In this document: positions 21,819 to 35,628 of the stretch, piece after piece | How positions within the stretch are numbered: position 1 is the stretch's first letter | How the letters are laid out: each line of letters begins with the position of its first letter | Source: an endosymbiont of Escarpia spicata | GTDB lineage: Bacteria; Pseudomonadota; Gammaproteobacteria; Chromatiales; Chromatiaceae | NCBI GenBank assembly: GCA_003349915.1 | Contig: QFXE01000020.1 | Location: forward strand, 124,001 to 188,000 | Direction: 5' to 3' | Length of the DNA stretch: 64,000 bases | Made by a program: the position numbers and the translations under genes | The notes under the pieces: generated by a model | Database searches by the model: none | What the model was told of the DNA's origin: nothing | Seen by the model: only the letters and a program-made list of their open reading frames with translations

Positions 21819-21896
21819 CCACACCCACCATCTCCACAGAGTAGCAACAAAAGTTGAAATACTCCTGCCCATCCATACAATACGCCACAGAAACGG

Positions 21897-22068
21897 TGCC
21901 CTAAGCGTCCAGCATGCGAAGGGTTAAAAGGGAACAGGGTGAGCAAACCATCGCAAAACCCTGGCTGTCCCCGCAACTGTAGGTGAGGAGCGTCTCCCGA
22001 CGACACCACTGGATTAAGGTCCGGGAAGGTGGGAAGACGCATCGATCCACGAGCCAGGAAACCTGCCG
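21897..22068 (+). promoter_or_regulatory. Cobalamin riboswitch aptamer ahead of btuB
   Basis: Conserved pieces occur in order: AAGGGTTAAAAGGGAACAGGG near 21918, a GGCTGTCCCCGCAACTGTAGG segment near 21963, and the B12 box AGCCAGGAAACCTGCC at 22052-22067. Binding of adenosyl- or methylcobalamin should repress the btuBFCD transcript. The aptamer starts soon after the truncated esterase's start on the opposite strand. Confidence 0.93.
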
Positions 22069-22070
22069 TT

Positions 22071-22135
22071 TCTGCGTCGCATGACCACTGAACGGGGCAT
22101 TCAGTGGGGCGGAAACCCGCTGGTCGACGCAAGAA
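22071..22135 (+). promoter_or_regulatory. Structured expression platform after the cobalamin aptamer
   Basis: An outer stem TGCGTCG (22073-22079) / CGACGCA (22125-22131) encloses a perfect 8-bp hairpin CCACTGAA/TTCAGTGG (22085-22107) and a GCGG/CCGC hairpin. No U-run follows, so this is not an ordinary terminator. The btuB ribosome binding site is about 105 bases further on. The control mechanism cannot be read directly from the sequence. Confidence 0.55.
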
Positions 22136-34548: not shown

Positions 34549-35160
34549 CTATTTGGCCTTTTCGGCCTTGCTCTGCAGTAAGGCTCTGTGCAACAGCAGT
34601 TGATCCGGCACACCGGTCTCATCAAGCCCCACTGTCTTCTGAAACTTTACGATTGCATCCCGCATCTTGTTTCCGTAGGCACCATCAATGGCTCCATCGT
34701 AGTATTTGTTCTCTTTCAGCCAAGTCTGCAGCCTCTCCAAAACCTCTTTATAAAGATAAGTCTTGTGCTCGCCATTCTTGGCTTCCACCACCGGTGACAG
34801 TGAGACGATGCGGTTACTCTGCATGGCTCTGGCCAGACTGGCTACTGCCACATAGAAACGCTGCTCCGGATTAGCTTTGCAATGCACCGCCAGCATCGTG
34901 CCAAGATAGACGGCGTTGCCCCAGGGAACGACATCGTAAGTATCTTTGGCATATTGACTGGTCGCCGTCAGATACCCTTCCATCCAACCCAAAAACGCAG
35001 CGTATTTACCCTCGGCTTTGGCCTTCTCCTCTACATATTGACTGCAGGTAGCCAAACCCATGCTTCTGACAGAAAACTTCCCATCACTATCAGCCGCCCA
35101 TGCCTGGGACTGGATCATCCCCATTACCAACACGCCGGTGGCGATCCACTTGTTTAACAT
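34549..35160 (-). CDS. Exported protein with a C-terminal peptidoglycan-binding domain
   Basis: This 203-residue protein has a signal peptide (ATGVLVMGMIQSQAWA). A roughly 100-residue domain of unknown fold with Cys39 and Cys94 follows (a possible disulfide). A PG_binding_1 domain is near residues 135-190 (LQTWLKENKYYDGAIDGAYG, MRDAIVKFQKTVGL). The ATG at 35160 follows a GGAG. An intrinsic terminator lies 30 bases upstream in the same direction, so expression probably depends on read-through control (see the leader). Confidence 0.8.
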   Translation of the reverse strand: MLNKWIATGVLVMGMIQSQAWAADSDGKFSVRSMGLATCSQYVEEKAKAEGKYAAFLGWMEGYLTATSQYAKDTYDVVPWGNAVYLGTMLAVHCKANPEQRFYVAVASLARAMQSNRIVSLSPVVEAKNGEHKTYLYKEVLERLQTWLKENKYYDGAIDGAYGNKMRDAIVKFQKTVGLDETGVPDQLLLHRALLQSKAEKAK

Positions 35161-35190: not shown

Positions 35191-35221
35191 AAAAAAAAAG
35201 CTATACGGAAACCGTATAGCT
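35191..35221 (-). terminator. Strong intrinsic terminator just ahead of the peptidoglycan-binding protein gene
   Basis: On the minus strand a perfect 10-bp stem AGCTATACGG/CCGTATAGCT (35221-35212 and 35208-35199) with a TTT loop runs into nine T residues (through 35191). It ends 30 bases before the start codon of the gene on the same strand. Confidence 0.9.
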
Positions 35222-35431
35222 GTTAGTTTACTACGTAGATCCCGTCCTCCGACGGATTATTATTTTTTCAAGTACAATTCCAATTCAAATCATCTGAAAC
35301 GGCGGGTCGGCGGCCTAATGCTTTCCGTCACTTCATTTGACTAGGATTCAGATTGTCTATCCAACCTCAGCTAAAAGCCTTGTCATAACTACTAGCAATA
35401 GCCATGCCATCTAGTTATTTTCTTTATTATT
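35222..35431 (-). promoter_or_regulatory. Candidate structured leader RNA or short RNA between promoter and terminator
   Basis: The roughly 210-nt minus-strand segment lies between a good promoter and a strong terminator. Visible pairings include a CAATCTGAA/TTCAGATGATTTG-type closing stem (about 35359-35351 with 35299-35286), CCTA/TAGG and GTCA/TGAC inside it, and a CCGTC-ggag-GACGG hairpin (about 35253-35240). It is much more AT-rich than its surroundings. It could be a riboswitch-type leader for the downstream gene or a free small RNA. The stretch 35466-35628 beyond the promoter is AT-rich with nothing recognisable. Confidence 0.45.
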
Positions 35432-35437
35432 CAGTCT

Positions 35438-35465
35438 ATTATAAATTTTAACATTAGGCTGACAA
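35438..35465 (-). promoter_or_regulatory. Near-consensus sigma70 promoter on the minus strand
   Basis: TTGTCA (35465-35460) and a perfect TATAAT (35443-35438) are 16 bases apart on the minus strand. A transcript starting near 35431 would run through the leader, into the terminator at 35221-35191, and towards the peptidoglycan-binding protein gene. Confidence 0.65.
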
Positions 35466-35628
35466 GCAAACGTGTAAAAGAATCCGACAGTTTATTGGAG
35501 GGGGCCACAGAGAAGATTTGTGGACTTTCTACGGCAAAAATCTCAAGTCCTTGTTTTTTAATACGTTAGAGCAATGAAATGTAAACTCACGGAATTCGAG
35601 CGACTGTAAAATATCCTGACAGTGTTTT

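Follow-up and report, generated by a model that had tools for sequence, protein, structure and literature searches.

A candidate PrsR- and sigma-54-dependent small RNA of the PEP-CTERM/exosortase regulon in tubeworm symbionts

The window analysed here, a stretch of 64,000 nucleotides, is located on contig 4 of a 4.06-Mb symbiont genome, which was compared with five congeners (G001-G005) to give a set of six genomes. An earlier, sequence-only reading of this DNA had described a terminated leader directly before a gene and had overlooked a sigma-54 site and two enhancer sites, so that the conserved unit in fact extends up to position 35621. In the direction of transcription, the features of the locus are:

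35605-35621, minus strand: distal enhancer motif TGTCAGGATATTTTACA (PEP-CTERM box motif 1), a candidate PrsR site, kept in six of six genomes with one variable base
35473-35489, minus strand: proximal enhancer motif TGTCGGATTCTTTTACA (PEP-CTERM box motif 1), kept in six of six genomes with one variable base
35438-35465, minus strand: sigma-70-like site of the earlier reading, probably fortuitous, its hexamers decaying in the five congeners
35394-35409, minus strand: sigma-54 -24/-12 promoter TGGCATGGCTATTGCT, strict consensus, kept in all six genomes
35191-35383, minus strand: predicted small RNA of 193 nt, its start placed 12 nt behind the C of the -12 element and its end at the last U
35274-35356, minus strand: long imperfect hairpin, predicted by the consensus fold, without covariation
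35256-35273, minus strand: A-rich linker CTTGAAAAAATAATAATC, predicted to be unpaired in the consensus fold, invariant in six of six genomes
35242-35255, minus strand: small hairpin CCGUC-GGAG-GACGG of the consensus fold, invariant in six of six genomes
35222-35331, minus strand: slowly evolving core of the RNA; 103 of its 110 alignment columns are the same in all six genomes
35191-35221, minus strand: intrinsic terminator, a 10-bp stem and nine U, from the sequence and the six-genome alignment
34549-35160, minus strand: gene for an exported 203-aa protein with a PG_binding_1 domain (48.8 bits, cut-off 23)

The perfect 10-bp hairpin and nine U of the earlier reading are confirmed on the minus strand, where the stem (35221-35199) is followed by the T run; stem and T run are kept in all six genomes, and the loop is variable. 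The placement of this terminator 30 nt before the start codon of an exported peptidoglycan-binding protein is also borne out, with the ATG 30 nt behind the T run in six of six. Within a 1.5-kb region, three terminator-like sites were counted against a mean of 1.2 (sd 1.0) in shuffled sequence, and three promoter-like sites against a mean of 1.4 (sd 1.4).

It had been proposed that a near-consensus sigma-70 promoter starts the transcript. The site is present, with 11 of 12 matches at 35465-35438, but it is complete in just one of the six genomes: the -10 hexamer is TATAAT in this genome only, TATAAC in two and CATAAC in three, and the -35 hexamer is divided evenly between TTGTCA (3/6) and TTGCCA (3/6). 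Since the hexamers are not conserved among the congeners, a sigma-70 start was rejected. The sigma-54 -24/-12 site, TGGCAY-N5-TTGCT, is by comparison kept in 6/6 genomes. The strict sigma-54 pattern has six matches in the 4.06-Mb genome and four to seven per congener, and its reversed control has one match here and two to five per congener. Consequently, the pattern alone is little above chance, and the case for this promoter depends on conservation and spacing. Transcription is predicted to start at 35383, rather than near 35431 as the sigma-70-like site would imply; a start at another place was one of the outcomes that the earlier reading had named as counting against it.

The spacing is that of a described class of promoters. 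In the excerpted text of Haft et al. (2006, PMC1569441), PEP-CTERM genes of Proteobacteria are preceded by a 17-nt motif that ends in TTTACA and is sometimes repeated; this motif 1 is followed by a spacer of 62.8 nt on average and then by a -24/-12 site, motif 2, which lies a mean of 71 nt and at most 221 nt before the start codon. PrsR is proposed there as the activator of these PEP-CTERM box promoters, and work elsewhere that used primer extension and RT-PCR has shown that a PEP-CTERM gene depends on RpoN (PMC9850573, in excerpt). The present locus resembles the PEP-CTERM box / PrsK-PrsR-RpoN regulon in its repeated 17-nt motif 1 ending in TTTACA, in its -24/-12 motif 2, and in a spacer of 63 nt between the proximal motif and the sigma-54 site in 6/6 genomes. 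It differs in that motif 2 lies 232-235 nt from the start codon and in that a terminated RNA stands directly behind the promoter, in place of the PEP-CTERM gene that is usual, though not universal, at such sites.

The likeness extends to the proteins, as PrsR, an exosortase and PrsT are all encoded in this genome. PrsR scores 733.6 bits with TIGR02915 (cut-off 502.6) and the exosortase 142.2 bits with TIGR02602 (cut-off 105.55), with the narrower XrtA model below its cut-off; beside them are encoded PrsT and PEP-CTERM-type polysaccharide genes. The adjoining prsK is split in this assembly into three ORFs, all of which match TIGR02916 (L113:6444-8541, contig 10 of this genome, G000). The split could be a real loss or an assembly error, so the signal input to PrsR may be lost here. 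In 5/5 congeners, the part examined upstream of prsR, at most 490 codons long, is open.

Other members of the putative regulon can be recognized by the same motif. The pattern TGTMRRNNNNYTTTACA has 24 matches in this genome, which form 19 clusters, and 23-28 matches per congener, where the reversed control has 0-1. From the genes that follow other clusters, seven proteins were picked by their C-terminus; six exceed the cut-off of TIGR02595, and the seventh (L069) matches related models only, below cut-off. The remaining clusters lie in some cases at contig ends, in some before other genes, and in some lack a sigma-54 site. A strong terminator straight behind the promoter was found at this cluster alone among the 19, in a scan that began 70 nt and ended 600 nt past the last motif of each and that contig ends shortened at L058, L059 and L067. 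One further cluster, L061, has a weaker terminator at +553.

The predicted RNA is 192-195 nt long across the six genomes. Conservation of the leader in relatives, which the sequence-only reading had expected of a functional element, is strong: between congeners, the core has a mean p-distance of 0.024, compared with 0.157 for the fourfold sites in the gene that follows and with 0.148 and 0.166 for the intergenic blocks. The limits of the core were set after the alignment had been viewed, and the excess of invariant core columns over intergenic columns outside the motifs (121/188 invariant; Fisher p 2e-9) is to be read with this post hoc choice in mind. Low divergence extends beyond the core to the terminator (0.035), the spacer to the ATG (0.044) and the first 54 bases of the gene (0.041); the 5' part of the RNA evolves faster (0.131).

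No conserved open frame was found in the RNA in the six-genome alignment. The sole start with at least 13 codons in 6/6 genomes was rejected as a small ORF, as its frames end at differing stops (13 or 23 aa), and no Shine-Dalgarno sequence was noticed before it. The consensus fold predicts, in order, the long imperfect hairpin, the A-rich linker, the GGAG-loop hairpin and the terminator. None of its 51 pairs is changed on both sides among the six sequences, which are nearly identical. The folding z-scores are -1.07 for the 194-nt RNA, -1.70 for 246 nt and -0.87 for 211 nt; the folding energy of the predicted RNA is ordinary. A three-part structure with a closing stem, as suggested earlier, is not supported by these results, and in the consensus fold the GACAA/TTGTC pairs that close it draw on bases that come after the T run.

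At gathering score, the leader has no match in Rfam. Four near-hits below threshold appear at E up to 10, namely SNORD28, ncS54 (E 0.0072), mir-2154 and RsaJ; ncS54 was set aside as a match below gathering score that falls mainly on the terminator. The window's one Rfam match at gathering score is a Cobalamin riboswitch at 21877-22084 on the plus strand (121.9 bits, gathering 31.5).

In the searches made, the RNA is confined to this genus. BLASTN over 92 genomes found the leader in the six genomes of the genus only; matches outside it (best E 0.0015, L008) were dismissed as coding-like or GC-rich chance, nine of them judged by eye. An exact 20-mer of the core occurs in four records among 84,980 species, all of them Escarpia or Lamellibrachia tubeworm symbionts, in a collection that may omit records very near the window's genome. 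The genus is probably Candidatus Endoriftia or a near relative, in the family Sedimenticolaceae. A model of the RNA, R1, was also searched, with part of the candidates per genome scored at first look: in 369 genomes of the class it recovered this genome, with three further hits (18.7-20.3 bits, E 0.44-0.86) that were taken as chance, and in 38 genomes of the family it recovered two of the genus and one hit at E 0.05 (G024), which overlaps a GAATTGG-repeat stretch.

The arrangement recurs outside the genus. A stricter motif-spacer-sigma-54 pattern, run on 51 other genomes of the family, gave 27 sites in 11 genomes, against none for the reversed control. At 16 of the 27, an ORF follows that ends, by eye, like a PEP-CTERM or related sorting signal. 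A terminator lies within 141 nt at four (L096, L097, L098 and L109), and L104 and L108 have terminator-like sites beyond 400 nt, within ORFs. For the first of the four, L096, a search of 37 other genomes gave matches in five, each a member of the same genus, g45 (three across almost the full query, two at its 3' end); together they define a second unit:

L096:1351-1489, with L117-L121, minus strand: second RNA unit, with two PEP-CTERM-box motifs, a sigma-54 site and a terminator, in six of six g45 genomes

All six genomes retain the near motif, the sigma-54 site and the terminator of this unit; its distal motif is kept in five and one base off in L120. Like the present unit, it has two motif-1 sites, a sigma-54 site, an A-rich stretch, a terminator and no gene product; it differs in the length of its RNA (128-139 nt) and in preceding what we take to be a yidD-like gene. 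In its fold, four of 25 pairs are changed on both sides, three of them in the middle hairpin, and its RNA has no Rfam match at gathering score. With model R1, two of the six g45 units score 23.2 and 22.3 bits and the other four 8.7-13.3 bits; the best scores of R1 elsewhere are 18.5 bits in the window (opposite strand, same terminator) and 16.1 bits in 23 other loci. Model R2, built from the g45 RNA, fails to find the present RNA and gives 20.9 bits on L097.

The three other terminated sites can be described briefly. At L098 (plus strand, from 1501), a PEP-CTERM-box promoter is followed within 130 nt by a terminator, with a fragment between them that resembles a PEP-CTERM tail; the site seems to be the scar of a lost gene. 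L109 (plus strand, from 1501) has a PEP-CTERM-box promoter and a terminator at +141, without an evident gene between them; the gene behind it is probably parE-like. When 37 other genomes were searched for this site, a single partial match appeared, and a second genome from the genus of L109 gave no match. L097 (minus strand, from 1501) has a PEP-CTERM-box promoter and a terminator at +70, again without an evident gene.

Taken together, these results make it likely, as judged from the DNA, that the unit from 35621 to 35191 on the minus strand encodes a separate regulatory RNA, some 193 nt long, and is part of the PEP-CTERM/exosortase regulon. In this model, the response regulator PrsR would bind the two enhancer motifs and activate RNA polymerase carrying sigma-54 at the -24/-12 site, and the transcript would stop mostly at the U9 terminator. 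The RNA would thus probably be switched on together with the exported PEP-CTERM surface proteins of the tubeworm symbionts, and it may act in trans, perhaps with help from Hfq, on other mRNAs as targets during surface-protein and exopolysaccharide production. Incomplete termination would supply the downstream peptidoglycan-binding protein. When pairing was predicted between the RNA and 137 start regions from the examined loci, a single GC-rich outlier emerged, before a gene that we take to be DUF484-like; it was judged to be probably chance. Of the two possibilities raised earlier, a riboswitch or a free small RNA, the small RNA is the better supported; the riboswitch has against it the lack of an aptamer and of an antiterminator and the presence of a controlled promoter upstream.

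A different role for the same promoter and terminator is suggested by the downstream gene. The gap between the terminator and this gene is too short for a separate promoter, and the peptidoglycan-binding gene is most likely transcribed by read-through. Consequently, and because the ATG follows the terminator by 30 nt in an order kept in 6/6 genomes, a role of the RNA in cis is possible. The unit could then be a PrsR/sigma-54-controlled 5' leader with an attenuator, in which a protein or RNA on the core sets read-through into the gene. The slow evolution of the spacer and the gene start would fit this, as would the distance from motif 2 to the start codon, which in the excerpted text of Haft et al. 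(PMC1569441) reaches 221 nt and here is 232-235 nt. However, the 5' arm of the terminator has no upstream partner that beats shuffled sequence in any of the six genomes (out of 200 shuffles, 49 to 174 did equally well), nor a partner at a position common to the genomes, and the other members of the regulon in this genome lack such a terminator. We therefore regard an attenuator as rather unlikely.

The 203-aa protein itself has no PEP-CTERM match, and its HdeA-like match stays just below threshold (21.3 bits, cut-off 22). Homologues occur in three other genera (L038-L040), one of them cut by a contig end; visual inspection of the two that have upstream sequence showed no such leader. The gene that precedes L040 ends, also by eye, like a PEP-CTERM protein.

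It is very improbable that the RNA is functionless, the remains of a PEP-CTERM gene whose coding part was lost and of which the promoter and terminator stayed behind. Such a remnant seems to be present in another genus, at L098, but the core evolves about six times more slowly than fourfold sites over six species, and no PEP-CTERM remnant was seen in the listed frames of the RNA. A scar may nevertheless be the origin of the locus, even if the RNA is functional. There is similarly little to recommend a protein sponge, for example for CsrA, acting through the GGAG-loop hairpin: this hairpin is invariant and, by eye, a few other GGA triplets are kept in the alignment, but one GGA alone is clearly in a predicted loop and Rfam gives no match to a CsrB, CsrC or Rsm family. 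Hardly credible, finally, is the riboswitch of the earlier reading, a classical ligand-binding transcriptional switch of no known class, which has the usual order of leader, terminator and gene and the slow core in its favor, but no Rfam aptamer beyond sub-threshold matches, no antiterminator that would exclude the terminator in the shuffle comparison over six genomes, no homologue outside the genus in the genomes searched, and no pair changed on both sides in sequences that are too alike for covariation. What stands of that riboswitch-like plan is the terminator and the non-coding leader; its promoter and the riboswitch itself find no support.

As a small RNA gene, the unit has counterparts elsewhere. 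Qrr and CrcZ are short terminated RNAs driven by sigma-54 and an enhancer-binding activator; the present RNA differs from them in activators, sequence and targets and has no Rfam match. By analogy, GlmY, which is similar in size to the present RNA, would be the nearest working model. Like the present RNA, it is an sRNA under sigma-54 with sites for a two-component activator (QseF/GlrR) upstream and a gene directly behind (PMC8745638, PMC6075780, in excerpt). In the excerpted text of PMC8745638, GlmY of Escherichia coli ends in an intrinsic terminator and qseE has its own promoter, whereas in Proteus mirabilis GlmY and the next gene form an operon without such a terminator. The present RNA differs from GlmY and GlmZ in having no Rfam match to either and in its activator. 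In Desulfovibrio vulgaris, the response regulator DVU0679 has an sRNA target, and PEP-CTERM genes are among the targets of another regulator, DVUA0057; unlike the situation proposed here, no sRNA is linked to DVUA0057 in the excerpted text (PMC3333781).

Published accounts present PEP-CTERM/exosortase systems as regulons made up of exported proteins and exopolysaccharide, and no regulatory RNA tied to PrsR was found in the open-licence literature, judged mostly from listings. A broader proposal is offered tentatively, as one that may well prove wrong: this regulon could have an RNA arm, in which small RNAs dedicated to it would be transcribed under PrsR and sigma-54 in two or more genera of this family, at unrelated loci, perhaps born from scars of PEP-CTERM genes, and which in tubeworm symbionts would couple surface-protein export to post-transcriptional control. 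Tubeworm symbionts are hard to study by genetics. If the present reading is correct, a PrsR-controlled RNA would be a handle on the tuning of PEP-CTERM/exosortase systems in symbionts. The locus also suggests a cheap search, for a PEP-CTERM box followed by a terminator without a gene, and it was such a search that yielded the g45 unit.

Two further observations concern the motif and promoter scans of this genome. L058 and L067, at the ends of contigs 4 and 17 of G000, show a nearly identical protein start behind a PEP-CTERM box, probably because the gene is repeated and the assembly broke at it. At L049 (contig 11 of G000, 23490 and 25762), two strict sigma-54 sites are opposed; similar pairs occur in all five congeners, and in four of these they lie on one contig, 2.0 to 11.4 kb apart.
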